Shown in pieces: positions 5,882 to 63,967 of a stretch of DNA of 64,000 nt. Made by a program: the position numbers and the translations under genes. Origin of the DNA: a bacterium (GTDB lineage Bacteria; UBA4055); the NCBI GenBank assembly GCA_029559475.1, contig JAKQBN010000061.1, positions 6,020 to 70,019 of the forward strand, in the 5' to 3' direction. The notes below the pieces were generated by a model. The model saw only the letters and a list, made by a program, of their open reading frames with translations, was not told the DNA's origin and did no database searches. Positions within the stretch are counted from its first letter, which is position 1; each line of letters starts with the position of its first letter.

Positions 5882-5910
5882 TTGCGTTAGGATTGTTTTA
5901 TGCTTATATT
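5882..5910 (+). promoter_or_regulatory. Promoter of the transposase
   Basis: TTGCGT (5882-5887), 17-base spacer, TATATT (5905-5910), inside the IS and upstream of the preferred start at 5938. Confidence 0.6.
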
Positions 5911-5937
5911 TCTTGTATAACTGATTTCGGAGAAATT

Positions 5938-7428
5938 ATGCTTAAAAAACAAGAAACAAAACAGTCAGAAATAGAGATGGTGATCTTGGAAGACCTTATT
6001 CCGGAAAATCATCTCTTGAGAAAAATCTCAAAGCATATTGACTTCAGCTTCGTCAGAGACAAGCTCAGTCCATTTTACTGCGACGACAACGGCAGACCTC
6101 CGGTAGATCCGGTAGTATTGTTCAAGATTTATTTTCTGGGATTTTTATACGGGATAAGGTCTGAAAGGCAACTTATGCGTGAGATAGAAGTTAATCTTGC
6201 CTACCGCTGGTTTTTAGGATATAAGATCAATGATCCGGTACCCCACCACTCCACTCTAAGTTTTAACAGGCTACACCGTTTTCAAGACAGCGATGTTTTT
6301 AGAGAACTTTTTGATGAGGTTGTTTTTTTAGCTATCCGGAAAAAACTTGTTACAGGCGAAGTATTATATACGGACTCGACCCACTTGAAAGCTAACGCCA
6401 ACAAGAAGAAGTTCGAAAAGAGGGATGTAGAAGGCACGGCGAAGCATTATCTGGATGAGCTTGAAGAAGATGTAAACAAGGATCGTCTTCGGCACGGAAA
6501 GAAAGAGCTGAATGATAAGCCTAAAGAGTCTGAAGTAAAAGAAGTACGAGTAAGCACTACCGATCCGGACAGCGGATATATGTGCAGGGACTTTAAGGAG
6601 GAAGGGTTCGCTTATCTTGACCACAGAACAGTTGACGGTAAGCACAATATAATAACTGATGTTCATGTTACGCCGGGCAATGTTCACGACAGCATACCGT
6701 ATATAGAGAGACTTGATCATCAGATAAACAGGTTCGGGTTTGATGTTCAAGCAGTAGGTCTTGATGCAGGCTATAATACGGTCGCAGTATGTCACGGATT
6801 AAAGCAGCGCAACATTTATGGAGTACTTGCCTACAAAGCACCGAGCTCAGATAAAGATCACATTAGGAAGAAATTTTTTACATATGATAAAGAACAAGAT
6901 ATTTATATATGTCCGGAAGGATGCCGCCTTAAATATCAAAACACAGGCAGGGATGGTTATCAGCAATTTGTGTCTGACCCTGAGATATGCTCAAAATGTC
7001 CGAGGCTTGCAGAATGTACAAAGGAGAGGAATCACAGAAAGCTTATAGCTCGGCATGTATGGGAGGATGACAAGACAGAGATGGACAAGAACAGGCTTAC
7101 TGAATACGGGAAAGAAATATACAAACGGCGGAAGGAAACGGTTGAACGAAGCTTTGCTGATGCTAAACAGCTTCATGGCTACAGATACGCACGATACCGA
7201 GGCATCTTAAGCGTCACTTTCCAATGCATCATGACCGCTATCTGCCAGAACATTAAAAAGATAGCTAACTTACTGGATAAAAGACCGGAGACAATAGTGC
7301 CTGTGTTATCGTCTAAATTATCAGCCTTAATTTTAGCCTCATATATGCTTATAAACGTACTTTTTGACCAAATTGAAAGTGCCACCAATATTTTTAAGAA
7401 AAATAAGCGTTGCTTAAAAAGCGGCTAA
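5938..7428 (+). CDS. IS1182-family DDE transposase
   Basis: A 496-residue transposase. The N-terminal part (EDLIPENHLLRKI ... YGIRSERQLMREI) matches the DUF772/InsH-type helical domain; the RNase H-fold catalytic core has Asp146 (YTDSTHLKAN), Asp276 (VGLDAGYN) and Glu403 (ETVERSFADAKQLHG). A cysteine cluster (CPEGCRLKY, CSKCPRLAEC) lies before the glutamate. I choose ATG 5938, five bases after GGAG; an upstream ATG at 5893 in the same frame lies in the promoter. The frame is intact, so the copy may be active. Confidence 0.93.
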   Translation: MLKKQETKQSEIEMVILEDLIPENHLLRKISKHIDFSFVRDKLSPFYCDDNGRPPVDPVVLFKIYFLGFLYGIRSERQLMREIEVNLAYRWFLGYKINDPVPHHSTLSFNRLHRFQDSDVFRELFDEVVFLAIRKKLVTGEVLYTDSTHLKANANKKKFEKRDVEGTAKHYLDELEEDVNKDRLRHGKKELNDKPKESEVKEVRVSTTDPDSGYMCRDFKEEGFAYLDHRTVDGKHNIITDVHVTPGNVHDSIPYIERLDHQINRFGFDVQAVGLDAGYNTVAVCHGLKQRNIYGVLAYKAPSSDKDHIRKKFFTYDKEQDIYICPEGCRLKYQNTGRDGYQQFVSDPEICSKCPRLAECTKERNHRKLIARHVWEDDKTEMDKNRLTEYGKEIYKRRKETVERSFADAKQLHGYRYARYRGILSVTFQCIMTAICQNIKKIANLLDKRPETIVPVLSSKLSALILASYMLINVLFDQIESATNIFKKNKRCLKSG

Positions 7429-27392: not shown

Positions 27393-27401
27393 AGGATAAT
27401 T

Positions 27402-27467
27402 ATGTCGCAGTTCCACAGGCTGATTTATATTGACAAAATGATAAATAAAGGGTCGTTACAGCTATGA
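27402..27467 (+). CDS. 21-codon ORF before the WYL regulator (leader or remnant)
   Basis: MSQFHRLIYIDKMINKGSLQ(L), stop TGA overlapping the ATG of the WYL gene (ATGA at 27464-27467). AGAGG is well placed upstream. The peptide resembles the start of a WYL regulator: compare IERIVYIDRTIKQKGSITKK from the next gene. It can be a decayed duplicate whose stop codon now couples translation into the full copy. Function as a peptide is doubtful. Confidence 0.55.
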   Translation: MSQFHRLIYIDKMINKGSLQL

Positions 27468-28432
27468 GAGAAAAAAGCAAGATCGAGAGAATAGTCTATA
27501 TCGACAGAACTATTAAGCAGAAAGGTTCAATAACAAAAAAGCAGATAATGGACTGGTCCGGTGCCTGCGAATCATCAGTTAAGAACGATATAGATTTTTT
27601 AAAAAATGAACTGAACGCACCCATTTATTATTCCGGCAAGAAAAAAGGCTACGCATACAAAGAAGATGTTCCATTCGAACTCTTAACATTTTTAAGCGAA
27701 AATATGGTGATCCTTTACGCTCTTTTGAAGGAATTCTTCTCGAACAGGAATTTTATGCCTGTAATAACTGACAAGATACTAAAAGGTCTGAAGGATGAAC
27801 TGCCTTCAGAATATAAAAACATTGATGGCAAGATAAGCTTCAGACTTTCTGAAGCTGAGAATCCTGAGATGGATAAATTCGAGATCATTTTCAACTCGAT
27901 ACTAAACGAGACCTGCCTTGAAATTCATTATTCTGACGCTAAAGGCGTGAGTAGTGAGAGGAGTATCGAACCGCTTCACATTTACCACTATCAGGGGAAA
28001 TGGTCTGTTTTTTCTTATTGCAAGAAAGCAAGGGATTACAGGGTATTCAACCTTTCGAGAATCACTAAACTTGAAACAACTAGTAATAAATTCAGGATTG
28101 CTAATCACCCGCAGAACGTAATTGAAAATCACCTTAACGAAGCTTTCGGAGTAGCCAGAGGAAAAGAGATCGAACAGGCCGTGATATGGTTCTATGAGCC
28201 GACAAGCCATCATGTAACCGATCAGAAGTGGCATCCTGATCAGATAACAGATCATATCACAAGAAAAGGCAAAAACATCCTGCAGTTTACGCTTCCAGTA
28301 GCTAAATACGAGGAGCTTGTCGGAAGAGTTCTGAGGTATGCGCCTGATGCTGAAGTCAGATCGCCAATAGATATGCGTAATATGTGGCTAGACAAAATTA
28401 AGTCCCTTTCTGAAAAGTATCTGAAAAAATAA
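27464..28432 (+). CDS. WYL-domain transcriptional regulator
   Basis: 322 residues. The N-terminal winged helix covers about residues 5-60 (IDRTIKQKGSITKKQIMDWSG ... SVKNDIDFLKNEL). The WYL fold is in the middle (IHYSDAKGVSSERSIEPLHIYHYQGKWSVFSYCKKARDYRVFNLSRI); the signature WYL is WSV here. A C-terminal WCX-type extension follows (VGRVLRYAPDAEVRSP). Such regulators sense nucleic-acid-derived ligands and often control phage defence genes. Here it stands at the edge of the 28.4-39.1 kb accessory island and could act on the repeated motif at 28469-28607. Confidence 0.88.
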   Translation: MREKSKIERIVYIDRTIKQKGSITKKQIMDWSGACESSVKNDIDFLKNELNAPIYYSGKKKGYAYKEDVPFELLTFLSENMVILYALLKEFFSNRNFMPVITDKILKGLKDELPSEYKNIDGKISFRLSEAENPEMDKFEIIFNSILNETCLEIHYSDAKGVSSERSIEPLHIYHYQGKWSVFSYCKKARDYRVFNLSRITKLETTSNKFRIANHPQNVIENHLNEAFGVARGKEIEQAVIWFYEPTSHHVTDQKWHPDQITDHITRKGKNILQFTLPVAKYEELVGRVLRYAPDAEVRSPIDMRNMWLDKIKSLSEKYLKK

Positions 28433-28468
28433 AGCCTAACTTAATATTTACATAATAAGTCATTATTC

Positions 28469-28496
28469 TTGACCCGGTGCACCTGTATATTATTAT
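28469..28496 (+). promoter_or_regulatory. Island promoter 1 with embedded repeat
   Basis: TTGACC (28469-28474), 16-base spacer, TATTAT (28491-28496). The spacer contains the palindrome GGTGCACC followed by TGTAT. The same core recurs at the second promoter. Confidence 0.6.
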
Positions 28497-28578
28497 TTAT
28501 AGTATCTGTATAGAAAAAATAAAAATTAAGATATGAATGAACCATATACTTTTAATTTTCACAGATCAGGACAGTTTT

Positions 28579-28607
28579 TTTACCAGGTTGCATCTGTATC
28601 TTGTATT
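28579..28607 (+). promoter_or_regulatory. Island promoter 2 with a copy of the same repeat
   Basis: TTTACC (28579-28584), 17-base spacer, TGTATT (28602-28607). The spacer, AGGTTGCATCTGTAT, parallels CGGTGCACCTGTAT in promoter 1, so a regulator could bind between the two boxes of each. Candidate operators for the WYL protein. Confidence 0.5.
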
Positions 28608-28633
28608 TATGTAATCCGGTATGAGGTGTAATT

Positions 28634-28867
28634 ATGGAAAAGATCAACTGTAAGAAATGCAGCGCAACAATAGCTACTCCCGGCTATGCGAGTAGGACTT
28701 TTGCAGGAACTTATATGACCTGCTCCCAATGCGGTACTGAACTCAAAAAAGTTTCATATATTCTAAAGTTAAGTGAAGTTCAGGTCGCATTCGTATGTAA
28801 GAAATGCATCGCCATAATCAAAAAAAGGACCGGGCTCAAATGTCCGATATGCGGCACTATAAATTGA
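28634..28867 (+). CDS. Small double zinc-ribbon protein
   Basis: 77 residues with four CxxC pairs: CKKC (6-9), CSQC (35-38), CKKC and CPIC. Two zinc ribbons are therefore likely. RBS GAGGTG stands well before ATG. The next gene begins 24 bases later. It heads a set of three small genes with a terminator at 29353. I do not recognise a specific family; such ribbons may bind nucleic acid or a partner protein. Confidence 0.68.
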   Translation: MEKINCKKCSATIATPGYASRTFAGTYMTCSQCGTELKKVSYILKLSEVQVAFVCKKCIAIIKKRTGLKCPICGTIN

Positions 28868-28891
28868 TATAAAGAAAATAAGGAGGTGAAA

Positions 28892-29119
28892 ATGCAGAAT
28901 GAAAAAGAAGCGGCTTACTGGAAAGCTGTTCAGAAATGGGCGGAAAAAGCGCAGACGCTTGTGCAGTATCAGCAGAAAAACATGAAATGGTTCCTTTCGC
29001 CCGAGATAGTTCAGTGGTGCACGCCGAGCTACGAAAGTGAAGTGTCACAGCTTGAAAGAGAGGTCGAAAGACTCGAAAAAGAAGCTGACAGACTGGAAGT
29101 AGAAGCAGGATTAAACTAA
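28892..29119 (+). CDS. Small coiled-coil protein, function unknown
   Basis: 75 residues from ATG 28892, five bases after AGGAGG (a GTG at 28886 sits in the RBS and is rejected). The N-terminal part is helical and aromatic (YWKAVQKWAEKA, MKWFLSPEIVQWC). Residues about 50-72 are a strong leucine-zipper pattern (SQLEREVERLEKEADRLEVEA). No family recognised. Close spacing with neighbours suggests one operon. Confidence 0.62.
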   Translation: MQNEKEAAYWKAVQKWAEKAQTLVQYQQKNMKWFLSPEIVQWCTPSYESEVSQLEREVERLEKEADRLEVEAGLN

Positions 29120-29136
29120 ACAAAAAGAGGTGAAAA

Positions 29137-29352
29137 ATGAGCTTAGGGAAAGCTTTGCTTATCGGAGCTGCGGGGCTCGCGGCGGGATTATTAATAGCCG
29201 CATGGGCGGAAACAATGGACAGTGACTCATCAGATACTGATACGGATCTCGATCTTGACGATACCGGAGATTACACATATATCGGTGATTCGGATGAAAC
29301 AATCGAAAGTGAGACTGATGAAACTTTGACAGACCAGATTCCGCAGGTATGA
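29137..29352 (+). CDS. Small membrane protein with acidic tail
   Basis: 71 residues. Residues 4-24 form one hydrophobic helix (GKALLIGAAGLAAGLLIAAWA). The remainder is very acidic (SDSSDTDTDLDLDDTGDY) and Thr/Ser-rich, likely facing the cytoplasm or the periplasm. RBS AGAGGTG. It ends the first small-gene group. Function unknown. Confidence 0.6.
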   Translation: MSLGKALLIGAAGLAAGLLIAAWAETMDSDSSDTDTDLDLDDTGDYTYIGDSDETIESETDETLTDQIPQV

Positions 29353-29377
29353 AAAAGGCGGGTAATTCCGCCTTTTA
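29353..29377 (+). terminator. Terminator after the first island gene group
   Basis: AAAAGGCGG (29353-29361), loop, CCGCCTTTT (29368-29376). The stem is strong; the T-run is inside the stem and short. Confidence 0.7.
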
Positions 29378-29417
29378 TCCATGCGATTCTAGCAGACGTT
29401 ATTATGATTCATGGATA
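29376..29417. other. Short inverted repeat before the first TPR/UDG cassette
   Basis: TATCCATG (29376-29383) and CATGGATA (29410-29417) enclose 26 bases. It lies 60 bases upstream of the 29477 gene and may be an operator or a transcript hairpin. No convincing -35/-10 pair is visible here. Confidence 0.4.
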
Positions 29418-29476
29418 TACAATGGTATCATTGGAACTTAGAATCTCAAACTTAAATTAAAAGAAAGGAAATATTT

Positions 29477-30013
29477 ATGAAAAACGAAATCTATGACAAA
29501 ACCAGGCTGCAAAGTGCCTTTGACAATCTTGACACTATACTCACGGAGTTAGATGTTAAAGATGAGTGTAGTAAGTTGTATAGCTTTATCGAATTTAAAG
29601 ACTATGAAAAAGCCCTCGAAAGAGCCGAACTGATTATCATGAAACTACTGCCTAAATTCTGTACTAAGGAAGGCGAATTCTGCGAAGTTGATCAGTTTGT
29701 TATACTTGATTTTACTTATGCTATGTATGGCAAAGGATATTCTCTGTTCAAGCTCGGTAAATATTCTCAGGCTTATTTATACTTTAAAGATGTTTTTGAC
29801 ACTCTTCAGGAAAACTGCATTAGGCCTACCGGCGATCTGTTCTATTATATGGCTAAATCAAAACAGCTTTCAGATGATTTTGGTAAAGCATCGGCATTTT
29901 CATCAGGAAAGTTCTCAGGCTTCATGAAGCTTTTAGGACCCGAATTCCCTACCATTCCTGGAAATATGCGTGAACCAATTAAAAAACTAAAAAAGAAAGG
30001 TGATAAAAAATGA
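29477..30013 (+). CDS. TPR-like helical protein, cassette copy A1
   Basis: 178 residues, all helical. Repeating hairpins such as FIEFKDYEKALERAELIIMKL (about 50-70) and YGKGYSLFKLGKYSQAYLYFKDVF (about 100-123) look like tetratricopeptide units. It is paralogous to 37632-38069: compare DYEKALERAELII with HYRKALTRAEIIL. In both places it sits upstream of a UDG-fold gene; here the next ATG overlaps its stop (ATGA at 30010). Probably a scaffold or partner protein; function unknown. Confidence 0.7.
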   Translation: MKNEIYDKTRLQSAFDNLDTILTELDVKDECSKLYSFIEFKDYEKALERAELIIMKLLPKFCTKEGEFCEVDQFVILDFTYAMYGKGYSLFKLGKYSQAYLYFKDVFDTLQENCIRPTGDLFYYMAKSKQLSDDFGKASAFSSGKFSGFMKLLGPEFPTIPGNMREPIKKLKKKGDKK

Positions 30014-30519
30014 TCATTCACGACTATTGCAAAAACTGTCCGTATTATCTAATAAATATGGCCGATAAGGGCTCACTGTCAAAAGAGGATAACGGTTCGG
30101 ACACTATACTTGTTTTTCAGTCACCCGGCCGAAAAGAATGGGTAAATAAAAAGCCTTTAAGCTCAGACTCTCCCCGTTCATGTAACGGGATCGTGTCGCG
30201 TTCCTGGGAAAGAACAGGAAGAAAGCGCGAAGAATTCGATATAACCAATGCGGTTCAATGCTATCCCGGTCAGGATCAGAAAACCAAACGCGATCTCCCG
30301 CCCGATCCCAAAGCCGTAGAACAATGCCTGTACTGCCTAGAGAAAGAAATTCTGTCTAAAAAGTATAAGATCGTTATTGCCTTCGGGAAAACTGCCGAAA
30401 AATCAGTGAACAGGATCGTTGAAAAACATAATCTTGATACTATCGTGATCAATTCTAAGCATCCTGTGGCAGGCGTAATAAAAAGAGATATTGATAATTT
30501 ATGGACAAAGAAACAATAA
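30010..30519 (+). CDS. Family 4/5-like uracil-DNA glycosylase with 4Fe-4S cysteines, cassette copy B1
   Basis: 169 residues. Motifs match family 4 UDG: FQSPGRKEW (for GEAPGxxE, Glu43), DITNAVQCYPGQ (for ITNVVKCRPP), PPDPKAVEQCLYCLEKEI ... KIVIAFGKTA, and HPV (His151). Cysteines 7, 10, 84 and 106 or 109 fit the four ligands of the 4Fe-4S cluster. It may excise uracil or a related base, or bind it without cutting, since the Phe-Gln before SPG differs from GEAPG. Start overlaps A1 by four bases; the next gene starts 12 bases after its stop. Confidence 0.8.
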   Translation: MIIHDYCKNCPYYLINMADKGSLSKEDNGSDTILVFQSPGRKEWVNKKPLSSDSPRSCNGIVSRSWERTGRKREEFDITNAVQCYPGQDQKTKRDLPPDPKAVEQCLYCLEKEILSKKYKIVIAFGKTAEKSVNRIVEKHNLDTIVINSKHPVAGVIKRDIDNLWTKKQ

Positions 30520-30530
30520 AAGGGGAATTT

Positions 30531-31253
30531 ATGGATACTCTCTTAAGCGGTATTGATACAATAGACAGCGGACTGGAAGGATTTTCATTAGGAGAAATGG
30601 TTATCTCCGCTTCCAGGCCCGGGCATGGCAATATCTACCTTCTGTTGTCGATCGTGAGGGGAATTTATTACGACTTCATTGATAGGTACAAATGCCTGGT
30701 TTTCTCGAACTCTGAAAAAAGCAGGCTAAAACCTTTACAGCCCGGAGATGAAGATATATTTATTTACTATAAGTTCCAGAGCGATTCATTAACGGGTTTT
30801 TTCTCCGAACTTGAAGATCAGATTAAACTAAACGATACGAAGATCTTGATTATCGACTACAATGAAACCAGTTTTCAGAAGAATAAGAACTTCTTCATCG
30901 GTCTTAAAAATATAGCAGTTAGAAAAAATATTCTTATCTTCATTAAATCGTATTTGACGCGGCAGTCCGCACGAAAATCGTGGTTCAATCCTCAGATAGC
31001 AGATATTGAGGGAGCACCAGTAGTTGAAAAGATCGCGGATAAGTATATAATCATGCACCGTCTTGATGTTCTCGGTATCAAGGATGCTTCCGGGCGTGAT
31101 CAGACAAATATCGTCGATATCAGGCTCTGTGCAAGAGATCTGTGCCATACAGGCTCTAAGTACATTTATTTCAACAGCGACAAGAATATTTTCGAAAATT
31201 TCACTCCGCTTCATAACAGATACGGGTACTACTATCTTTACAGTGAAAACTAA
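30531..31253 (+). CDS. DnaB-like RecA-fold protein with degenerate Walker A
   Basis: 240 residues from ATG 30531 (AAAGGGG before it; ATG 30501 overlaps the previous gene). Fold cues: LLSGIDTIDSGLEGFSLGEMVISASRPGHGN matches DnaB C-terminal domains (TGFTDLD...IVAARPSMGKT), ILIIDYNETS is the Walker B strand, and ADIEGAPVVEKIADKYIIMHRLD matches DnaB motif [21 protein letters not shown]. The Walker lysine and threonine are replaced (GHGNI), so ATP hydrolysis is doubtful. No N-terminal helicase domain. Probably a structural or DNA-binding homologue working with the UDG. Confidence 0.72.
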   Translation: MDTLLSGIDTIDSGLEGFSLGEMVISASRPGHGNIYLLLSIVRGIYYDFIDRYKCLVFSNSEKSRLKPLQPGDEDIFIYYKFQSDSLTGFFSELEDQIKLNDTKILIIDYNETSFQKNKNFFIGLKNIAVRKNILIFIKSYLTRQSARKSWFNPQIADIEGAPVVEKIADKYIIMHRLDVLGIKDASGRDQTNIVDIRLCARDLCHTGSKYIYFNSDKNIFENFTPLHNRYGYYYLYSEN

Positions 31254-31285
31254 GACAGCAAAATAAATAATTTAAGGGAGAATTT

Positions 31286-31633
31286 ATGACTATCCATTAT
31301 TCAAAGCAAATTTACAGCGAATTAGCCACTATCAAAGCTGAATTTGACAGGATTGCTGAAAATTTATACAAAATAAAAAAGAAGTATTATGCAATAAATT
31401 TCGACATCTCTGAGAATGAAAAGCTCGAAGAGGAGATATTCAAAAACGAGTGCGCCCTGGAAGCTCTCGAAGACACCGATGAAGAAATTTTATCAAAGAT
31501 CCGTAATAAGATCGCAGGATTACAGAAAAGAATAGAAGATAATAAAAACCAAGATACGATACTGAAAAGCATTGATGATATTTTCTTGGATATTGATCAG
31601 AAAATTCAGATTCTGGATCACCAGATCGATTGA
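31286..31633 (+). CDS. Coiled-coil protein, function unknown
   Basis: 115 residues, nearly all helical and acidic, for example DISENEKLEEEIFKNECALEALEDTDEE. Heptad-like spacing covers most of it, with a C-terminal hydrophobic helix (IFLDIDQKIQILDHQI). RBS AGGGAG before ATG. It lies in series with the UDG and DnaB-like genes. No family recognised. Confidence 0.6.
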   Translation: MTIHYSKQIYSELATIKAEFDRIAENLYKIKKKYYAINFDISENEKLEEEIFKNECALEALEDTDEEILSKIRNKIAGLQKRIEDNKNQDTILKSIDDIFLDIDQKIQILDHQID

Positions 31634-31707
31634 GCATGACCCGTTCATTGAAATAGAATCAGACCTTTTACTGAAAACTCACTAAATTTTAATTAAACGG
31701 AGTAATT

Positions 31708-31923
31708 ATGAAAAACAACCATAAAATCAGCTTCATAAAGCCTGTACCTTATGCAGTGCCTGACTTAAGATTCTGCAATATATATTGCTTTAAAGAAATT
31801 ATCATGCCTGATGACCGGATTGGCAATATCGGTGATTCATGGACATATTGTGTAATCGATTCGCAGGAAATATTTTATAATCCTTTATGTAAATCAAACG
31901 GAGACTATAGCTATGAATGCTGA
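31708..31923 (+). CDS. Short protein, function unknown
   Basis: 71 residues, no recognised motif; a Cys-containing core FCNIYCFKEIIMPDDRIGNIGDSW. RBS CGGAG. Its end overlaps the start of the membrane protein (31913) by 11 bases, which supports it as a translated gene. Partner or small effector function is possible but not shown. Confidence 0.5.
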   Translation: MKNNHKISFIKPVPYAVPDLRFCNIYCFKEIIMPDDRIGNIGDSWTYCVIDSQEIFYNPLCKSNGDYSYEC

Positions 31924-32329
31924 AAAAGAAATTACAGATAAGATTTTTTTTAAAAATCCCAGAACCGGAGAAACTCAGACTGTAGGCAGTAACTTAAACA
32001 TCATATTTGGAGTGTTTTCCGTAATGTGCGGAATACCATTATTTATCAGAAGGCTTAACTCATGGGGATATGTTATGCTAGCTTTACAAAGCGTGTATAT
32101 GCTCCTATACCCTCAGTTCAGAGAAGGCGATTATTGCTCGATCTTTTTTTTACTTTTCGTTGAAATCATAATCAGCTTATATTTAGGCATCAAAGGTAAC
32201 AGGCTCCTTACGATCTATTACTTTGAGAACGGGTGGATTATGGAAAATCCTCATAATGAAATGGTCCGGAACACATTCAAAAAATGGAAACTTGAACCTG
32301 AAGTAATCCCTCGCAAGGGAGTCAAATGA
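31913..32329 (+). CDS. Small multi-pass membrane protein
   Basis: 138 residues with three hydrophobic segments: LNIIFGVFSVMCGIPLFI, WGYVMLALQSVYMLLYP and CSIFFLLFVEIIISLYLGI. Cytoplasmic basic flanks. The start lies inside the previous ORF. The next ATG (32326) overlaps its stop, so it was translated together with the Nudix gene now decayed. Function unknown. Confidence 0.6.
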   Translation: MNAEKEITDKIFFKNPRTGETQTVGSNLNIIFGVFSVMCGIPLFIRRLNSWGYVMLALQSVYMLLYPQFREGDYCSIFFLLFVEIIISLYLGIKGNRLLTIYYFENGWIMENPHNEMVRNTFKKWKLEPEVIPRKGVK

Positions 32330-32746
32330 AAAACAGAAAAGAACAAATTTCTATGCTACAAATGTAATGGCAACGAAACAAGGCTACACAACCTGCGATC
32401 TGTCGGTATCGGAGGTCATACCGACAGGCAGGACTGTGTGAATTGCGATAATTACACAACTATTCTCAACTGCGCAGAGCGCGAATTATTCGAAGAGATC
32501 TCACTCAGAATCGATAAGAACAGACTCAAATTCATCGGGATCATCAACGACGATAAAACCGAAGTAGGCTCAGTACACTTCGGAGCCGTTTTCTTATACA
32601 AACTCGATGATATTGAAAAAATAAAAAACACTACCGAAATCGAATCATACCAATGGCTGAGCATGAAAGAGATTGACGGTACAGATAATCTTGAAGAATG
32701 GAGCAGAATAGCTATGATCCTGTATAAAGATTTTTTCCTAAAATGA
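32326..32746 (+). pseudogene. Decayed Nudix hydrolase gene
   Basis: ATG 32326 (AAGGGAG before it, ATGA overlap with the membrane protein) gives MKNRKEQI, then a wrong-frame stop. The other frame, from about 32339, reads FLCYKCNGNETRLHNLRSVGIGGHTDRQD and AERELFEEISLR, which is a Nudix box, and continues to 32746 without stops. Relatives have about 60 residues between the two pieces, so an internal deletion with frameshift is the best reading. A shortened protein from GTG 32438 is open but lacks the fold's first half. Substrate cannot be stated. Confidence 0.68.
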
Positions 32747-32758
32747 AAATTATTCAGC

Positions 32759-32788
32759 TTGACTTTACCTCCCGGAAAATTGCATATT
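32759..32788 (+). promoter_or_regulatory. Candidate promoter of the 32817 gene
   Basis: TTGACT (32759-32764), 18-base spacer, CATATT (32783-32788), just after the Nudix remnant. Confidence 0.5.
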
Positions 32789-32816
32789 TACACAACCTGA
32801 ATCGAGAGGTAAAAGG

Positions 32817-33746
32817 ATGGCGATTGTTAATGTTGAATATTGTGGTAATGTAATAATTCCTTCTTTGGATATCGAAATTACCAACCAGCACATCATAAAT
32901 GCAACGGAGTTTAATTTAAATATTTTTAAACGACAAGGCATTACTTTTACTGGAACTGGGCAAAATATTTCACAAGTTGATATTGATTTTGATCCGAGTA
33001 AAAATGCCGTTCCAGATGTATGGAGGTATACAATAAAAATTGATAAAAAAAGATGTTTATCACTCGTAAAATCAAAAGTAGGTTACAGAACATGCCACGT
33101 TGAAGCATGTAAGAACTTCCTCAATAACAAAAATTTTCCTCAAGATGTAGATATTGCAAAATGCATTTCAAATGCAAAATGCAAATTTTATAAAAAATAC
33201 CCAGTTATCCTTCTCCTTCTCGAATCTCCTCATAAAAATGAGTATACTAATGCTTTCATTCAAATCGCACCAGCGCAAAAAAGTACAGGAAAATGCATAG
33301 AGAGTAATATAATAAGTCTAATAGAAGAAATAAATAAGCGCATAAATCCTCAATTACCCATAAATACAAACTACAAGCTGATAATAGCAAATCCTATACC
33401 GTTTCAAACTTCATTACACATTTTAAAAAATAAAGATTCAGGATTTGATGATAACCAAAGAAAGTTAAGAGATAGAATTTGGAAATCACTCTGGCATCAA
33501 AATAGCTTAAGATACAATTTTCTAAATCGTCTGAACAACGATTACAAGCCCGATCTTGTTATAAATGCCTGTACAGAAAATCTGCAACCTTTGGTTTCCT
33601 GTTGCATAATTTGCGGAACTTGCTATCCTTTAGTTGAAACCAAACACCCAGCTAATCATTGGAATAAATATACAAAAAATAATAAAAGCAAATTCACTCC
33701 TGCGGAAATTCTGAAACTTAGATTTGGAATAGAAGTGATCAGATAA
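32817..33746 (+). CDS. UDG-fold protein of the restriction-neighbour type
   Basis: 309 residues. Motif order parallels the uracil-DNA glycosylase fold: LLLLESPHKNEY (about 132-143, like GEAPGxxE), YKLIIANPIPFQ (186-197, like ITNVVKC), PDLVINACTENL (245-256, like VIVALGRTA) and KHPANHW (276-282, catalytic-site His-Pro). The N-terminal 125 residues are extra and Cys-rich (CHVEACKN, CISNAKCKF). The tryptophan and histidine pattern differs from known UDGs; it may recognise or cut a modified base. RBS GAGAGG. AT-rich like the next two genes. Confidence 0.65.
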   Translation: MAIVNVEYCGNVIIPSLDIEITNQHIINATEFNLNIFKRQGITFTGTGQNISQVDIDFDPSKNAVPDVWRYTIKIDKKRCLSLVKSKVGYRTCHVEACKNFLNNKNFPQDVDIAKCISNAKCKFYKKYPVILLLLESPHKNEYTNAFIQIAPAQKSTGKCIESNIISLIEEINKRINPQLPINTNYKLIIANPIPFQTSLHILKNKDSGFDDNQRKLRDRIWKSLWHQNSLRYNFLNRLNNDYKPDLVINACTENLQPLVSCCIICGTCYPLVETKHPANHWNKYTKNNKSKFTPAEILKLRFGIEVIR

Positions 33747-33778
33747 TTCATTTCTCTATCATAACTCCTAATTTTTCT

Positions 33779-33807
33779 TTGACTTAAACCCTCATTCTTT
33801 GTAAATT
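33779..33807 (+). promoter_or_regulatory. Promoter of the nuclease/methyltransferase gene
   Basis: TTGACT (33779-33784), 17-base spacer, TAAATT (33802-33807), 33 bases before the start codon. Confidence 0.75.
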
Positions 33808-33839
33808 CAGGTTATATTTTATAAAGGATCAACCCACAG

Positions 33840-36245
33840 ATGAGTTTATATGAAAAATTACAAAAAGCTACAAGCGAAGAAGATGTTAAAGACGCATATA
33901 TCAAAGCTCTGGGATTAAAAAACTACTCGAAAAATCTGATTGACCTGCAAACAAAAGAAATCTGGTTTGAAGCAAAAGATACGAAAAGAAATTCAACGTA
34001 CGCTATGTTCACACAATTGATGCATTATGTTCAGGCCGCTTTGAACAAAGGCGAATATATTCCGCCATTTTTGGCAGTAATTGATACCGAAAAAGCAGCG
34101 ATAATGAAAAGCTCGGATGTTATACCTTTCTTAGCAAAGAAAACAATAAAATGGGGTAAATCTGCGAGCCAGTACACACAAGAAGCGCTTGATGAAATCT
34201 CAACACATATCGGTACTCATTTTGTTTCGTTTAAAATATCTACGCATGAAGAAGAATTTATTAGCACTGTAAAAGAAGCTATAAAATCAGGCGATATAAT
34301 CAGGACTAATATCACTCCTGATAACCTCAAGCAGGTATTTGATAAATGGGTATCTATGATAGGCAGGGAAATAAAAGAAGTCGATGAGAAAGATTATGCT
34401 TTGCTATTCTACGCGGATATTATGCACGATGGGGTAATGGCAACTCATAGTAATTTAACTGCTCAACTGCTACATAAAAACGACGCCCCGGTATTTAGCT
34501 TAAATGGGCACTTATACGAGCTTGGAAACAAGGAAGGTTACCGTCAGTTTTGGGCAATTTACCAAAAGCCACCTAAAGAGGAATACCGGAATTATTTACT
34601 TGAGAGGCGCGATAGTTTGATTCCTCTTGACGAGAGAGTATATAAAGGCGGCTATTACACACCTTTGAATGTCGTAGATAAGGCTTACGATAAACTTACT
34701 GAAACATTAGGCAAGAACTGGCAGAAAGATTACATAGTTTGGGATATGTGTTGCGGGGTAGGAAATTTAGAGGTTAAGCATAGTAATCATCGAAATATTT
34801 TTATGTCAACATTGGATATGGCCGATGTTGATATTATGCAAGCTACAAAAACCTGCGTGGCAGCCCAGCGTTTTCAATATGATTATTTAAACGACGATAT
34901 CACAGATAATGGACAAATTGATTATACCCTCACAAATAAAGTACCTTCAAGTTTACTGAAAGCTATAAAGGAAGAAAAAAAGATTTTAGTGTTGATTAAT
35001 CCTCCCTATGCTGAATCAACAAGTTCAGATAATATTAATACAGGAGGGGCTTCAGACTCAAGTAAGACTGGCATTGCAAAAACAAAGCTAGCACAATCAG
35101 CTATGAGTGAGTATGGTAAAGCAAGTAATGAACTCTTTACTCAGTTTGTTGTCAGAATAGCTAAAGAAATGCCTAATGCAACTTTAGCTATGTTTAGCAC
35201 TATGAAGTATGTCAATTCTCAAACATTAGAAATATTTCGTTCTGTTTGGAATGCAAAATATTTGGATGGTTTCGTTGTACATAGCAAAACCTTTGATGGG
35301 TTGAAAGGCGATTTTCCAATTGGATTCTTAATATGGAAAACGGATCAAAAATCAAAAACCAAACAACCCATAGTAGAAATATCCACTGAAGTGTTAGACA
35401 GACATGTCAATCCCATTGGTGAAAAATGCTTTTACAATATTTCTAACGATTTACTTCTAACTAATTGGATAAAACGTCCCAAAACAAATGAAACAGAAGT
35501 TATCCCATTAAAAAATGCAATTACTCCTGCAACCGCGAATAAAGATTTAAGAGGAACTAAGTGGTCTAAAGATGCTCTTGCGTTTTGTTGGTGTAATGGT
35601 AATGATGTACAACAAGCTTCACGAACCGCATTATTCTCTTCTGGTTTCAATGGTGGTCATGGATTATTTGTTAATCCTGAAAATCTCTGGCAAGTCGCAA
35701 TAATGTTTTCAGTTCGTCAATTAGTTAAACACACATGGGTTAATCATAATGACCAGTTTTTAATACCAACAGAGCCATTATCTTATGAGTTTAAAACCGA
35801 TTGTTTAATTTTCATGTTGTTTCATGGTAAAAATCTTTCAGCAAGTGCAAATGATCTAAAATGGAATGATAAAAAGTGGTCAATAGTAAATCATTTCATC
35901 CCCTTTACTGAAGTAGAAGTAAATTCGCCAGGCCGTTTTGAATCGGACTTTATGGTTCAGTACCTGGCTGATAAAGAGCTTTCTCCTGAAGCTAAAACAG
36001 TTTTAGATGGGGGAAGAAAATTATGGCAAAGCTATTTTTCTGAGACTGATGTTAGATCTGTACGAGATAAATACTGTCTTAACAGAACTGATGTCGGCTG
36101 GTATCAGGTTCGTAAAGCACTTGAAGAGAGAAATGCCAGCGGAGATTTCATTCCGGTTAGTTTCAAACCCTTAGAAGAAGCATATAAGAACTTAACCGAT
36201 AAGCTGAACCCGCAAGTTTATGAGCTTGGGTTCTTGCGTAAATAA
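33840..36245 (+). CDS. Putative fused restriction nuclease/N6-adenine methyltransferase (type IIG-like)
   Basis: 801 residues. The N-terminal domain shows a PD-(D/E)xK pattern, Asp35 with Glu44 and Lys46 (LIDLQTKEIWFEAKDTK), and a further beta core (PPFLAVIDTEKAAIM). The methyltransferase half has motif I WDMCCGVGNLE (about 301-311) and motif IV NPPY (387-390), the signature of gamma-class N6-adenine methylation. The C-terminal part lacks a typical specificity domain by eye. The fusion makes it a possible complete restriction-modification enzyme, though a methyltransferase-only role cannot be excluded. The recognition site is not predictable here. Confidence 0.75.
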   Translation: MSLYEKLQKATSEEDVKDAYIKALGLKNYSKNLIDLQTKEIWFEAKDTKRNSTYAMFTQLMHYVQAALNKGEYIPPFLAVIDTEKAAIMKSSDVIPFLAKKTIKWGKSASQYTQEALDEISTHIGTHFVSFKISTHEEEFISTVKEAIKSGDIIRTNITPDNLKQVFDKWVSMIGREIKEVDEKDYALLFYADIMHDGVMATHSNLTAQLLHKNDAPVFSLNGHLYELGNKEGYRQFWAIYQKPPKEEYRNYLLERRDSLIPLDERVYKGGYYTPLNVVDKAYDKLTETLGKNWQKDYIVWDMCCGVGNLEVKHSNHRNIFMSTLDMADVDIMQATKTCVAAQRFQYDYLNDDITDNGQIDYTLTNKVPSSLLKAIKEEKKILVLINPPYAESTSSDNINTGGASDSSKTGIAKTKLAQSAMSEYGKASNELFTQFVVRIAKEMPNATLAMFSTMKYVNSQTLEIFRSVWNAKYLDGFVVHSKTFDGLKGDFPIGFLIWKTDQKSKTKQPIVEISTEVLDRHVNPIGEKCFYNISNDLLLTNWIKRPKTNETEVIPLKNAITPATANKDLRGTKWSKDALAFCWCNGNDVQQASRTALFSSGFNGGHGLFVNPENLWQVAIMFSVRQLVKHTWVNHNDQFLIPTEPLSYEFKTDCLIFMLFHGKNLSASANDLKWNDKKWSIVNHFIPFTEVEVNSPGRFESDFMVQYLADKELSPEAKTVLDGGRKLWQSYFSETDVRSVRDKYCLNRTDVGWYQVRKALEERNASGDFIPVSFKPLEEAYKNLTDKLNPQVYELGFLRK

Positions 36246-36272
36246 ATATAAATCTTTCTCTGGAGGATGTTA

Positions 36273-37307
36273 ATGTCTGATAACAATATACCTGAAAACA
36301 ATAATAATAGTTTGGAAAATATTGCCAAAGATTACACTGAAAAAATGCTTTCTAAATCGATAAGTAATATTAATTTAGACTCTTTGAAAGGTAATTCCGA
36401 TAAGATAAAAGAAATTAAAGATAAAATATCATTTCATTCAATACATAGCGAACCGGTTCTTATCACAGGTGCAAGTGGTACAGGTAAAAGGCTCGTGGCT
36501 CATCTGATTCATAGCAACAGTATCTATAAAGAAAAGCCATACAAAGAAATAAACTGTCTGCTTTTTTCTAACGATAGGTTTAATTTTGACGAACTTATAG
36601 ATCTTCCTAATGGTGGCACTATCTATATTAGTAATACTCATCAACTGCCTTTGCAAGCTCAATTAAATATAATATATCTACTTTACGACGACTTTAAGAA
36701 TGAAAAGCCCTCGATACCTAAAGTACGGTTTATCTTTAGTGCAGAGAGTAATCTCATTGAATATGTAGATAAAGGCAGCCTCCAGAAAAGCTTCTTTGAT
36801 CTTATAAGTAACTTTGAAATTAAAACACCAAGTTTATACGAGATCAAAGACGATATTAAGATATTAGCTGAAAGCTTAGTTGACAAACTAAACCAAAAGT
36901 ATTTAAAGCAAATTGTGTTACGTTCTGATGCCTATGCTGTTCTAAAAAATCAATTATACATGAATAATGTACATGACTTAAAGAATGTTTTGATAAAATC
37001 TTTTATTCACGCTATGTACGAAGATAATGAAATAATCATGGCTGGGGATATAAAGAAGCATTTTGAACCTTACATAATCAAATGCATAGACGAAATACTC
37101 GTACCGATACCAATGCCTGAAAATAAGTCTCTTTCATCATACCTTGAAGAGATTAAGATCAAAATTTATGAATCTGCTTTGAACCATACTTCAAAGACTT
37201 TAGGCAAAAAGAGCCAGAAAAAAGCTAGTGAGTTTCTAAATGAAGATCAATCAACAATATCCAGGTTAGAAAATAAAAGAAAAACCAAATTTCTTAAATC
37301 ACTATAA
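36273..37307 (+). CDS. AAA+ protein derived from sigma54 activators, without GAFTGA
   Basis: 344 residues from ATG 36273, six bases after GGAGG. Walker A is LITGASGTGKRLVAHLIH, and INCLLFSNDRFNFDELIDLPNGGTIYISNTHQLPLQAQ aligns with the sigma54-activator core. The GAFTGA loop region between is absent, and the usual Walker B acidic pair DE is Ser-Asn (YISNTHQL), so it should neither contact sigma54 nor hydrolyse ATP normally. The C-terminal helix-turn-helix (QKKASEFLNEDQSTISRLENKRK) looks like a DNA-binding Fis-type end. Next to the methyltransferase it may serve as a regulator or partner. Confidence 0.7.
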   Translation: MSDNNIPENNNNSLENIAKDYTEKMLSKSISNINLDSLKGNSDKIKEIKDKISFHSIHSEPVLITGASGTGKRLVAHLIHSNSIYKEKPYKEINCLLFSNDRFNFDELIDLPNGGTIYISNTHQLPLQAQLNIIYLLYDDFKNEKPSIPKVRFIFSAESNLIEYVDKGSLQKSFFDLISNFEIKTPSLYEIKDDIKILAESLVDKLNQKYLKQIVLRSDAYAVLKNQLYMNNVHDLKNVLIKSFIHAMYEDNEIIMAGDIKKHFEPYIIKCIDEILVPIPMPENKSLSSYLEEIKIKIYESALNHTSKTLGKKSQKKASEFLNEDQSTISRLENKRKTKFLKSL

Positions 37308-37333
37308 TAATTTTTCACTTACATCAATTATAT

Positions 37334-37359
37334 ATTATTAATATATATATATTAATAAT
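37334..37359. repeat. Perfect 26-bp AT palindrome
   Basis: ATTATTAATATAT at 37334-37346 is followed by its exact reverse complement (37347-37359). It could form a cruciform or be a regulator site. Being only A/T it is a weak terminator candidate. Confidence 0.6.
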
Positions 37360-37570
37360 TGAAGAACTATATCGTCTTCATTCCATTGCAAACTTATGAA
37401 TATTTAAAGTACTGCCCATTACAGAATCAAAAAAATGTTTATCTATTACTTAGGCACAATTAAGTATTATATCAATTCGTATATTATTTTTTAATTATTA
37501 CTTACAGCATTATTTCATATTCGAATATTTATAGCTATTATACATAAATTTTCATAATCGATTTTTTTAC

Positions 37571-37599
37571 TTGACAAAGGTTTTTTTTTATTTTATAAT
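37571..37599 (+). promoter_or_regulatory. Fully consensus promoter of the second cassette
   Basis: TTGACA (37571-37576), 17-base spacer with a T-tract, TATAAT (37594-37599): the only exact sigma70 consensus in the window. Confidence 0.9.
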
Positions 37600-37631
37600 T
37601 CGGGAGAAGTTAAAATAAAAAAAGGATCAGG

Positions 37632-38069
37632 ATGACTTGTAAAAACAACGAAATAGACACCGAAATGGTGCAAGACGCAGAACTTGAAGCACAAAAGGAA
37701 ATAGAGTATGCGATAGCCGATAAAGCTGTAAGCGAACTCTTCAAATCAATAGCTAAGAAACACTACAGAAAAGCTCTTACAAGAGCAGAAATAATTTTAA
37801 GCACCCTAAATGATTCCGTAACTCCCAGAGTTTTCACGGATAAAGAAGAATTTTATGTTAGATACTCAACTTATATCAGGGCATATTGCCACCTGATGGT
37901 TCACAATTATAAAATGGCCTTAACGGGTTATAATGATTTACTAAGATTTAATGAAAGCACTAATGCTGTAACACCAGATTTTGTAATCACTGAGCTCAAA
38001 GAAGCTCAGAATAAATCAGAAAAGATGGTCCAACCGAGACAGAAGCAACAATTAAAAAACCAGAGGTAA
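37632..38069 (+). CDS. TPR-like helical protein, cassette copy A2
   Basis: 145 residues, paralogue of the 29477 product. Matching blocks: KKHYRKALTRAEIILSTL versus FKDYEKALERAELIIMKL, and STYIRAYCHLMVHNYKMALTGYNDL versus TYAMYGKGYSLFKLGKYSQAYLYF. It is shorter at the C-terminus and ends in a basic tail (QPRQKQQLKNQR). RBS AAAGGATCAGG near ATG. It opens the second group and is followed by a small gene within four bases. Confidence 0.7.
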   Translation: MTCKNNEIDTEMVQDAELEAQKEIEYAIADKAVSELFKSIAKKHYRKALTRAEIILSTLNDSVTPRVFTDKEEFYVRYSTYIRAYCHLMVHNYKMALTGYNDLLRFNESTNAVTPDFVITELKEAQNKSEKMVQPRQKQQLKNQR

Positions 38070-38072
38070 AAA

Positions 38073-38312
38073 ATGAGAAGGCGAAAGAATAATAAACAGC
38101 ATCTTTATTACAATGGTGTATGTAATTCTCAAAAGAAGAATCCTTATGAATTCGAATACAATTTCACATATAATAAAGATAGAACAGCTGTGAAAAGGTA
38201 CGCATTTAATTCTGGGAACAAGGTGGTTAACGAAACGTTCCAGGAATGTATGGGGTGGTTGAATCTTGCGAAAGAGGGAATAGATGTTGTGTTTTGCTTG
38301 TTAGGAGGATAG
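38073..38312 (+). CDS. Small basic protein, cassette copy C1
   Basis: 79 residues. Arg/Lys-rich start (MRRRKNNK), then FEYNFTYNKDRTAVKRYAFNSGNKVVNETFQECMGWLNLAKEGID. It is paralogous to 38842-39039: shared F.YNF, VKR, SGN, F.E and LN..KE.ID. RBS CAGAGG. No family recognised. The hydrophobic C-terminus (DVVFCLLGG) may dock to a partner or membrane. Confidence 0.6.
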   Translation: MRRRKNNKQHLYYNGVCNSQKKNPYEFEYNFTYNKDRTAVKRYAFNSGNKVVNETFQECMGWLNLAKEGIDVVFCLLGG

Positions 38313-38384
38313 CTTTGACTTATAACCTGATATCTAATTCTAACTAAACTTAAAAGCCCAAAAATAAAAATATAAGGAGCAATT

Positions 38385-38849
38385 ATGAAACAGAAAGATC
38401 TTTACGGACAACCAATAACATGTGAAAACAATAGTAGTGATACGCTTATAATGCTTGATATGCCTGATAAAAAGTCTCGTACTTCTCATAATTTAATCAG
38501 TATGCTTGAAAAATCCTGGGTGCGGGCAGCCTTAAGCATGAAGGATTTCGATCTCTTCTTTGCTTCAAACTGCAGTCATCAGGAAGACGAAATCAATATT
38601 GGGTTGCCCATCGAAAAGTATGCTTACGATCATTATATTGAACTGCTTAAGAAGAACATCGTCAAAAAAGGGATTAAGTATAAACGGGTCATTGCACTGG
38701 GTGATTTCTCAGAGAAAGTCGCATGGGACATATCAGACGAAATTGCAGAAAAGGACTCAAAAATCGTTTTCCTACAGATACCATTAAATAATGTTTACGA
38801 TGAGGATCTGGATAGAATCTGGACCGAAGAGGAGGGCAAAAATGATTAG
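38385..38849 (+). CDS. Degenerate UDG-fold protein, cassette copy B2
   Basis: 154 residues, paralogue of the UDG-like protein at 30010. Aligned blocks: SDTLIMLDMPDKK for SDTILVFQSPGRK, KSWVRAALSMKDFDLFFASNC for RSWERTGRKREEFDITNAVQC, and KGIKYKRVIALGDFSEKVAWDI for KKYKIVIAFGKTAEKSVNRI. The active-site Pro-Gly/Glu motif, the His-Pro (here Ile-Pro-Leu) and most Fe-S cysteines are gone, so it is probably catalytically dead and kept as a binding or structural subunit. RBS AAGGAG. C2 overlaps its end. Confidence 0.72.
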   Translation: MKQKDLYGQPITCENNSSDTLIMLDMPDKKSRTSHNLISMLEKSWVRAALSMKDFDLFFASNCSHQEDEINIGLPIEKYAYDHYIELLKKNIVKKGIKYKRVIALGDFSEKVAWDISDEIAEKDSKIVFLQIPLNNVYDEDLDRIWTEEEGKND

Positions 38850-39039
38850 AAGAATTAAAAGAATAAGGAGATCGAAAAGATTCAAGTATAATTTTGAACT
38901 AGGAACGAACCCTATGGTAAAAAGAACATACCGTTATTCTTCAGGTAACGATACGGTCGATGATATCTTCCACGAGAGTGTAGCTTGTTTGAACACTGTC
39001 AAAGAAGTCATCGATATTTTTTTTGATTTCATTACGTAA
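38842..39039 (+). CDS. Small basic protein, cassette copy C2
   Basis: 65 residues from ATG 38842, with GAGGAGG shortly before (a longer frame from 38791 overlaps the UDG-like gene heavily and is rejected). Very basic start (MIRRIKRIRRSKRFKYNF), then SGNDTVDDIFHESVACLNTVKEVID and a hydrophobic end. Paralogue of C1. Overlap with B2 implies coupled synthesis. Function unknown; a charged N-terminus suggests DNA or phosphate contact. Confidence 0.6.
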   Translation: MIRRIKRIRRSKRFKYNFELGTNPMVKRTYRYSSGNDTVDDIFHESVACLNTVKEVIDIFFDFIT

Positions 39040-39087
39040 TCACAGTAATCTAACTACAAGGCGAACATGCCTGTAAATATTAACATT

Positions 39088-39117
39088 GGCCAGCAATATC
39101 AAAGCTGGCCTTTTTTT
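39088..39117 (+). terminator. Strong terminator at the island's end
   Basis: GGCCAGC (39088-39094), loop, GCTGGCC (39104-39110) and T7. It separates the island from the minus-strand oad genes. Confidence 0.9.
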
Positions 39118-39197
39118 ATCCTTTTCTTTTGATGTAGTCTAAGTTATTATTAAATTCGGCATAAAAACATTACAGATACAATACGGATATATTTGAT

Positions 39198-40485: not shown

Positions 40486-40522
40486 GCACACCTCTATATT
40501 AAAAACGAACTTAAATTAAAAA

Positions 40523-40606
40523 TGCCCGGGACTGGGCTCGAACCAGCACAGCATTGCTGCCACCAGACCCTGAACCTGGCGTGTCTGCCAATTCCACCAC
40601 CCGGGC
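40523..40606 (-). tRNA. tRNA-Leu (CAG)
   Basis: 84 bases with the long variable arm of tRNA-Leu. Acceptor arm GCCCGGG/CCCGGGC, D-arm TGGTGGAATTGGCAGACACG, anticodon loop TTCAGGG giving CAG (reads CUG), T-arm GGTTCGAGCCC, discriminator A. CCA is not encoded. The promoter lies just upstream. Confidence 0.95.
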
Positions 40607-40623
40607 AATTCATACAGGCGGTA

Positions 40624-63130: not shown

Positions 63131-63967
63131 ATGTCAAACGAATTAATGGAATACAACCGTTTATTGAGGTTCAAGAACTACAGCCTGAGCACGATCAAAA
63201 CCTATACAAATTATTTTGAAATGTTCCTGGATCACTTCAAAGGAAAAGAAACAAATATACTTTCAAAAAACGAGATCATGGATTTTCTTCTTAAAGAAAG
63301 CGAAAAAGGTTTCTCAGCCGCATATCAGAATCAGCTCGTCAACTCGATAAAATTCTACTACGAAAAAGTCCTCGGCAGACAAAAAGAATTCTACAACCTC
63401 CCAAGAGCAAAAAAGCAATTCAAACTCCCCGTCGTCTTCAGCGAAGAGGAAATAGTTCAGCTGTTCGACCAGATTGATAATTTCAAGCACAAATGCATTC
63501 TCTATCTAATATACTCAGCCGGGCTCAGGATCATTGAAGCCGCCAACATGAAAATAGCGGACATCGACTCTACCCGGAATCTCATCGTAATAAAAGGTGC
63601 CAAGGGGAAAAAAGACAGAAACACTCTTTTATCTCAAACTCTTTTGGAAATGCTCCGTCATTATTATAAACTCTATCAGCCAAAAGAATATCTTTTTGAA
63701 GGCGAAACCGGAGGTCAGTATTCGGTCAAAAGCATACAGAACATTTTCAACAAAGCACTCGCTTCATCCGGGATCAAAAAAGAGGCGACGGTACACTCTC
63801 TACGGCACAGTTTCGCGACACATCTGCTCGAGCGGGGAACTGACTTAAGATACATTCAGGAACTGCTCGGTCACGAAAGTTCTAAAACGACCGAGATATA
63901 TACTCACATAACAAAAAAGGGAATGGATAAAATTGCCAGTCCGCTCGACAACCTCGATATACAGTAA
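63131..63967 (+). CDS. XerC/XerD-like tyrosine recombinase
   Basis: 278 residues: SAM-like N-domain (RLLRFKNYSLSTIKTYTNYFEMFLDHF) and catalytic residues Arg133 (YSAGLRIIEA), His222 and Arg225 (VHSLRHSFATHLL), His248 (LLGHESSKTTEIYTH) and Tyr257. It could be the chromosomal dimer resolution recombinase working with FtsK, or an integron/phage-like integrase. Short N-terminus fits the XerD/XerA group. No att site or partner visible in the window. Confidence 0.9.
   Translation: MSNELMEYNRLLRFKNYSLSTIKTYTNYFEMFLDHFKGKETNILSKNEIMDFLLKESEKGFSAAYQNQLVNSIKFYYEKVLGRQKEFYNLPRAKKQFKLPVVFSEEEIVQLFDQIDNFKHKCILYLIYSAGLRIIEAANMKIADIDSTRNLIVIKGAKGKKDRNTLLSQTLLEMLRHYYKLYQPKEYLFEGETGGQYSVKSIQNIFNKALASSGIKKEATVHSLRHSFATHLLERGTDLRYIQELLGHESSKTTEIYTHITKKGMDKIASPLDNLDIQ

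Follow-up and report, generated by a model that had tools for sequence, protein, structure and literature searches.

The 64,000-nt stretch analysed here (the window) was found to carry an 11.8-kb accessory island, in which a gene pair, A1-B1, is accompanied by a paralogous group, A2-C1-B2-C2. The region is very probably a composite island of defence and toxin-antitoxin type, headed by a WYL regulator and placed between two core genes. Judged by its residues, B1 is a member of a rare subfamily derived from family-4 uracil-DNA glycosylases (UDGs; UDG4), with a changed base pocket, and A1-B1 is best read as an exchangeable cargo pair within the variable slot of a module that is specific to the lineage. 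The mechanism proposed as a whole, in which B1 would excise bases from foreign DNA, A1 would act as adaptor or restrainer, and A2-C1-B2-C2 would be the modulator, is given a probability of roughly 0.35.

Duplicated A and B genes and the pocket of B1

The genes and signals of the two groups are as follows.

29477-30013, + strand: A1, tetratricopeptide-repeat (TPR)-like helical protein (TPR_1 E 9.5e-4, below cut-off; AlphaFold2 (AF2) model with pLDDT 63)
30010-30519, + strand: B1, member of a rare subfamily within the UDG superfamily, having four cysteines and the Glu/Asn/His pocket positions
37632-38069, + strand: A2, paralogue of A1 by shuffle-tested alignment
38073-38312, + strand: C1, small basic protein, paralogous to C2, with no relative outside the island
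38385-38849, + strand: B2, predicted catalytically dead paralogue of B1 (alignment to B1, hhalign to UDGs)
38791-39039, + strand: C2, paralogue of C1, overlapping the end of B2
29356-29373, + strand: intrinsic terminator between the small gene s3 and A1 (AGGCGG-GTAATT-CCGCCT, T-rich tail)
37571-37599, + strand: perfect sigma-70 promoter 5′ of A2 (TTGACA-17-TATAAT, 12/12)
39088-39110, + strand: intrinsic terminator closing the island, 3′ of C2 (GGCCAGC-AATATCAAA-GCTGGCC plus T7)

The initial annotation had placed paralogous A-B pairs and paralogous C genes here, and both the gene positions and the paralogy were upheld. Scored against 500 shuffles, none of which equalled any observed score, B1 and B2 align with 28% identity over 150 aa (E ~1e-14, z 22), C1 and C2 with 35% over 51 aa (z 15), and A1 and A2 with 28% over 81 aa (E 1e-4, z 8). 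The whole genome holds one B-type pair, one A pair, and one C pair, all in the island. A1 and B1 overlap by 4 nt (ATGA). An overlap between B1 and the following DnaB-like gene hinges on the choice of start, since homologues of the DnaB-like protein start near codon 11, and it vanishes with such a start. The terminators after s3 and C2 and the promoter 5′ of A2 were found as described, but the totals of promoters and terminators in the island scan were not above chance expectation. A scan of the island for sigma-54 promoters (TGGYAY-N5-TTGC) gave zero sites.

Membership of B1 in the UDG superfamily, also proposed initially, was established by its match to the Pfam UDG family PF03167 (45.2 bits, cut-off 24.3); against NCBIfam UDG_fam4 the protein scored 35.8 bits, under the 125.3 cut-off. 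B2 was assigned to the superfamily by homology, and only via B1: a profile started from B2, which includes B1 and one relative, matched UDGs by hhalign with a probability of 100%. The pocket of B1 was read from an alignment with family-4 and UdgX proteins, using the numbering of Thermus UDGa. Likeness to this family-4 enzyme (1UI0) lies in the UDG domain, in four cysteines of the 4Fe-4S type (C7, C10, C84, and C106, all aligned with their family-4 counterparts and kept in both B1 relatives), and in equivalents of E47, N80, and H155 (E43, N80, and H151 in B1). The two differ in that E41 is replaced by Q, G42 by S, D48 by W, and F54 by L, N89 is not conserved, and B1 has an extra RS insertion. 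The KRRIH-type loop of UdgX, with its cross-linking His, is absent from B1; the Caballeronia UdgX-like proteins (L014, L015) carry a KRR.HK loop. Because B1 keeps the key His while the pocket is reshaped, with more room at the F54 position, an altered base specificity would be likelier than plain uracil excision. A canonical family-4 UDG is encoded elsewhere in the same genome, on contig C7 (125 bits vs 45 for B1), which argues that B1 is not the housekeeping UDG.

B2 keeps the core of the domain but only one of the four cysteines (the C84 equivalent), and its Glu, Asn, and His positions are lost. These losses mark B2 as a putative pseudo-enzyme that is still homologous to B1, so that the pairing of an active-looking B1 with an inactive B2, drawn in the initial annotation, was retained as a prediction from sequence.

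Searches revealed only two B1-type relatives, on plasmid p1 of Azospirillum brasilense MTCC4039 and in a Pseudomonadales metagenome-assembled genome (MAG), with 35-37% identity. Both keep the four cysteines, E43, N80, and H151, as well as the motifs EW....PL.S...RS and TN.VQCYPG. The E41 position is R in the Azospirillum protein, and the Pseudomonadales gene has a PD-(D/E)XK_4 nuclease gene nearby on the same strand. Neither relative has A or C alongside. A scan of the genome contigs with the B1/Azospirillum alignment gave no further relative, and the DNA pattern for TN.[VIM]QCYPG yielded one true B1 relative in five matches there. Matches to the same pattern in viral contigs were rejected as B1 relatives, because they are phage DNA polymerases that include a UDG-type domain; such polymerases (~888 aa; L025, L026, L027) carry the domain at their N-terminus, and have TN.[VI]QCYPG in common with B1. 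Searches of the viral contigs with B1, the B alignments, A, and the DnaB-like protein gave no relative. The A-B pair was absent from every other genome searched, and A, B, and C from all 12 genomes of the family.

The AF2 model of A1 consists of six helices in three hairpins. In the PDB it is matched best by TPR domains (Z 11-12), with a Foldseek E of 0.025 at best, and helical hairpins match easily; against Pfam TPR_1, A1 scored 19.3 bits, under the 27.8 cut-off. C had no match anywhere.

The island and its module frame

The island and the genes of its frame are listed below; G001 is a genome of the same genus, and G003, G007, G008, and G009 represent four other genera of the family.

27400-39170, no strand: whole accessory island (homology break against G001 and G+C shift)
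27402-27467, + strand: relic start of another WYL gene, MSQFHRLIYIDKMINKGSLQL*, resembling the WYL starts of G003 and G007
27464-28432, + strand: WYL-WCX transcriptional regulator (PF13280 54 bits, PF25583 32 bits; 72% identity to the G009 WYL that adjoins the DnaB-like gene)
28634-28867, + strand: small zinc-ribbon protein of the module (of 12 genomes, only G007 and G008 have homologues)
28886-29119, + strand: small helical protein s2 of the module (63-74% identity in G007 and G008; none elsewhere among 145 genomes)
29137-29352, + strand: s3 of the module (one hydrophobic segment, AAWAETMD, and an acidic tail; kept in G003, G007, and G008)
30501-31253, + strand: DnaB-like protein of the module, Walker-A lysine lost (GHGN; PF03796 36 bits; start possibly 30531)
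31286-31633, + strand: acidic coiled-coil protein of the module (relatives in G007 and G008)
31913-32329, + strand: m138, membrane protein of the module (49% identity in G009, 42% in G003)

The island is flanked by ndk and by a gene of the sodium-translocating decarboxylase beta-subunit type. In G001 these two genes are adjacent: homology to the window ends at 27399 and restarts at 39171, and 35 bp stand where the window carries the island. Because this site is nearly empty, the island was read as one insertion, 27400-39170, with the WYL gene at its start. The island reported in the initial annotation is thus real, and a WYL regulator does stand at its head, but the bounds of 28634-39117 were wrong, and methyltransferase, U309, and AAA genes (see below) also belong to it. 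The G+C content of the island is ~29-40%, vs mostly 40-48% in the flanking DNA. Integrase-type insertion was ruled against by the absence of direct repeats at either end. The relic WYL start, 21 codons directly 3′ of ndk, closely resembles the starts of two other WYL genes, the one that follows ndk in G003 and the one of G007, which suggests that the site was probably refilled at least once, and is thus probably a hotspot. A tRNA-Leu(CAG) gene adjoins the module in G009 (L078 4196-4280), and one lies at 40522-40607 in the window, 1.4 kb from the island end. Elsewhere in the window are a DDE transposase and a tyrosine recombinase (5893-7428 and 63131-63967).

The frame is a lineage-specific module (WYL, ATPase-dead DnaB-like, m138, s3, s2, zinc ribbon, and coiled coil), which recurs in part in the four other genera. 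The order in G009 is antitoxin/PIN pair, WYL (72%), DnaB-like (52%), and m138 (49%); that in G007 is WYL, SoFic, zinc ribbon, coiled coil, s2, s3, and DnaB-like, with AbiEi/AbiEii adjoining. In G008, the end of an MmeI-type restriction-modification (R-M) enzyme is followed by the coiled coil, s2, s3, and zinc ribbon, and in G003, m138 and s3 are followed by an RHH/PIN pair, a HEPN/MNT pair, the DnaB-like gene, an ATPase, and Fic, with the WYL gene on another contig, 3′ of ndk. A related WYL in G006 has an R-M system of the HaeIII type and a pair of dynamins as neighbours; one of these dynamins is a weak LeoBC match. Across these five genomes, the neighbours of WYL-led or module loci include PIN toxin-antitoxin, HEPN/MNT, SoFic, AbiE, MmeI- and HaeIII-type R-M genes, and LeoBC-like dynamins. 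The defence-type setting of the island, a hypothesis in the initial annotation, is well supported by this richness in toxin-antitoxin, Fic, AbiE, and restriction genes. Besides the DnaB-like gene at L079 3041-3796, G003 has a second, internally deleted copy at 6564-6872, a Fic gene lying between the two. A conserved protein of 124-132 aa (VYKVYxxGQLMKVGKAxDGLRKRFSDYYRGK) stands at the module edge in two genomes (L078 685-1083, L079 7082-7456); it appears GIY-YIG-like by eye, and its G003 copy has no Pfam match.

The DnaB-like protein resembles DnaB helicase in its DnaB_C domain, which exceeds the Pfam cut-off, but is about half the size and has no N-terminal domain. All four members (window 30501-31253, L053 12110-12853, L078 1705-2418, L079 3041-3796) carry GHGN[I/F] instead of the Walker-A GK[T/S], and Asn replaces the lysine in each of the relatives from G003, G007, and G009; the loss is therefore old and kept, in agreement with the initial description of a non-ATPase. 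A separate full-length DnaB is also present in genomes of the family. The WYL protein is like BrxR/CapW-type regulators in pairing a WYL with a WCX domain and in heading loci of defence type, here with defence genes nearby; about half of the BrxR-family WYL regulators lie together with defence systems (PMC9122601). It differs in travelling with a DnaB-like protein that lacks the ATPase lysine.

The slot between s3 and the DnaB-like gene varies. In the window it holds A1-B1; in G003 it is taken by two toxin-antitoxin pairs, and in G007 by a 111-aa open reading frame (ORF). A, B, and C were themselves rejected as parts of the module, being missing from 12/12 family genomes. The initial annotation had joined A, B, C, the DnaB-like gene, and WYL into a single system, with co-occurrence of homologues elsewhere as its test. 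No co-occurrence of A, B, and C was found; WYL and the DnaB-like gene recur without A, B, or C, and the B1 relatives stand without A or C, so that the single system is not supported. Since the family genomes likewise lack all three, A-B-C is private cargo so far, with the DnaB-like gene and WYL belonging to something else.

Restriction-modification and other cargo

Between m138 and A2 lie four further genes.

32438-32746, + strand: NUDIX fragment, N-terminus missing (PF00293 from model position 43)
32817-33746, + strand: U309, unnamed family with ESPHxxE, ANP, and HP motifs (found with R-M genes; no Pfam family)
33840-36245, + strand: 801-aa NPPY-type adenine methyltransferase with a D...ExK-like N-terminus (69% identity to an ORF on an Acinetobacter plasmid of 9.8 kb)
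36267-37307, + strand: degenerate sigma-54-activator-type AAA protein (PF14532 61 bits; motifs read from translation)

U309 is a candidate R-M-associated gene. In a viral contig, a relative stands as fourth gene behind a complete type I R-M operon (HsdR, HsdM, and HsdS), followed by a LeoBC-like protein. That relative precedes a dynamin-like pair; the window gene precedes the R-M-type methyltransferase. Members of the family are the window gene (32817-33746), L046 5860-6666, L018, L019, and L029, and in G007 (L047) a recombinase resembling that of the window precedes a U309 relative. The order of its motifs suggested a third UDG fold, but profile comparison and AF2 modelling gave no proof: hhalign against UDG returned a probability of 4% (E 0.01) with an alignment limited to the first motifs, the AF2 pLDDT was 33, and the B1/U309 score equalled those of shuffles. 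The 801-aa protein is probably an R-M fusion, judging from its motifs. The AAA protein lacks GAFTGA, its Walker B is changed (GGTIYISN replacing GGTLFLDE), and its C-terminal end is helix-turn-helix-like.

Proposed mechanism and competing explanations

In the proposed mechanism, B1 would be a base-excising effector derived from family-4 UDGs. Its targets would be modified or damaged bases in foreign DNA, and their excision would create abasic sites, as with Brig1 and Brig3. A1, presumed to be co-translated with B1, would serve as a TPR-like adaptor or restrainer, while A2-C1-B2-C2 would be a derived unit under its own strong promoter that modulates B1, the dead B2 acting as a DNA- or partner-binding regulator. 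This is the best reading of the empty site in G001, the defence-rich module loci, the variable slot, a B1 that is not the housekeeping enzyme, the ATGA overlap, and the Brig precedents. That B acts on modified or damaged DNA, as first suggested, is plausible; we infer the substrate, the partner role, and the defence activity of A-B-C. UDG-superfamily enzymes have been described in phage defence, namely Brig1 (PMC11078745) and Brig3 (PMC13160076). By description, B1 is like them in superfamily, accessory defence island, and descent from a repair enzyme; the partner of Brig3 is the sugar hydrolase BapA, vs the TPR-like protein beside B1.

Several observations weigh against this mechanism. In Thermus UDGa, H155S and E41Q each cost about three orders of magnitude of activity, and E47A about two (PMC5387724), so that B1, with Q at the E41 position, may have little or no activity on uracil. 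A and C have zero convincing relatives among 193 genomes, and the B1 relatives lack A, which argues that A is not required for B-type function. Finally, none of the PADLOC models matched B1, B2, or the DnaB-like protein, and A1 matched only with E 0.011.

One alternative, itself unlikely, is that B1 is an accessory DNA-repair glycosylase, for uracil or another lesion, which stands on the island by chance, with A, C, and B2 as unrelated or decaying passengers. The UDG domain of B1 exceeds the Pfam cut-off, B1-type genes occur stand-alone, and the NUDIX fragment and relic WYL start point to decay in the island. However, a canonical family-4 UDG is already present in the genome, the pocket of B1 differs from it, partly in the same way across the subfamily, and the duplicated A-B order is left unexplained.

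It is slightly less likely that A1-B1 is a toxin-antitoxin-like pair, in which B1 would be a genotoxic glycosylase directed at the DNA of its own cell and neutralised by A1, and A2-B2 would be a decoy or an addiction remnant. The small size and the overlap of the two genes would suit such a pair, and so would their slot, which in G003 is taken up by two toxin-antitoxin pairs, and the TPR-like scaffold of A, which the model suggests is probably protein-binding. Neither of the two B1 relatives, however, has an A-like neighbour, and we know of no glycosylase toxin-antitoxin pair.

Most improbable is an origin of A-B-C as remains of a replication module, from a phage or a plasmid, that combined a glycosylase domain with the DnaB-like protein: the phage polymerases with fused UDG-type domains share TN.[VI]QCYPG, the DnaB-like gene adjoins, and the methyltransferase shares 69% identity with a plasmid gene, but the DnaB-like gene is part of a lineage module that is chromosomal and has no B, and its catalytic lysine is lost; A and the DnaB-like gene were found in no phage or plasmid record, and no B1 relative was found in viral contigs.

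The base-excision mechanism has a more ambitious form, which is unlikely: A1-B1 and A2-C1-B2-C2 would make up an undescribed immune system, in which an Fe-S glycosylase excises a phage base, a TPR-like protein is the sensor, and the dead glycosylase of the second copy is the regulator, housed in an undescribed frame of WYL and ATPase-dead DnaB-like genes.

UDG-derived enzymes have only recently been shown to act in phage defence. B1, from a rare UDG4-derived subfamily, is unique here in that its partner is duplicated and a dead copy of it exists, an arrangement in which one could test directly how a glycosylase of DNA repair is retuned and held in check. The module of WYL and the ATPase-dead DnaB-like protein, kept across several genera around changing toxin-antitoxin and restriction cargo, would offer a tractable defence-island frame.

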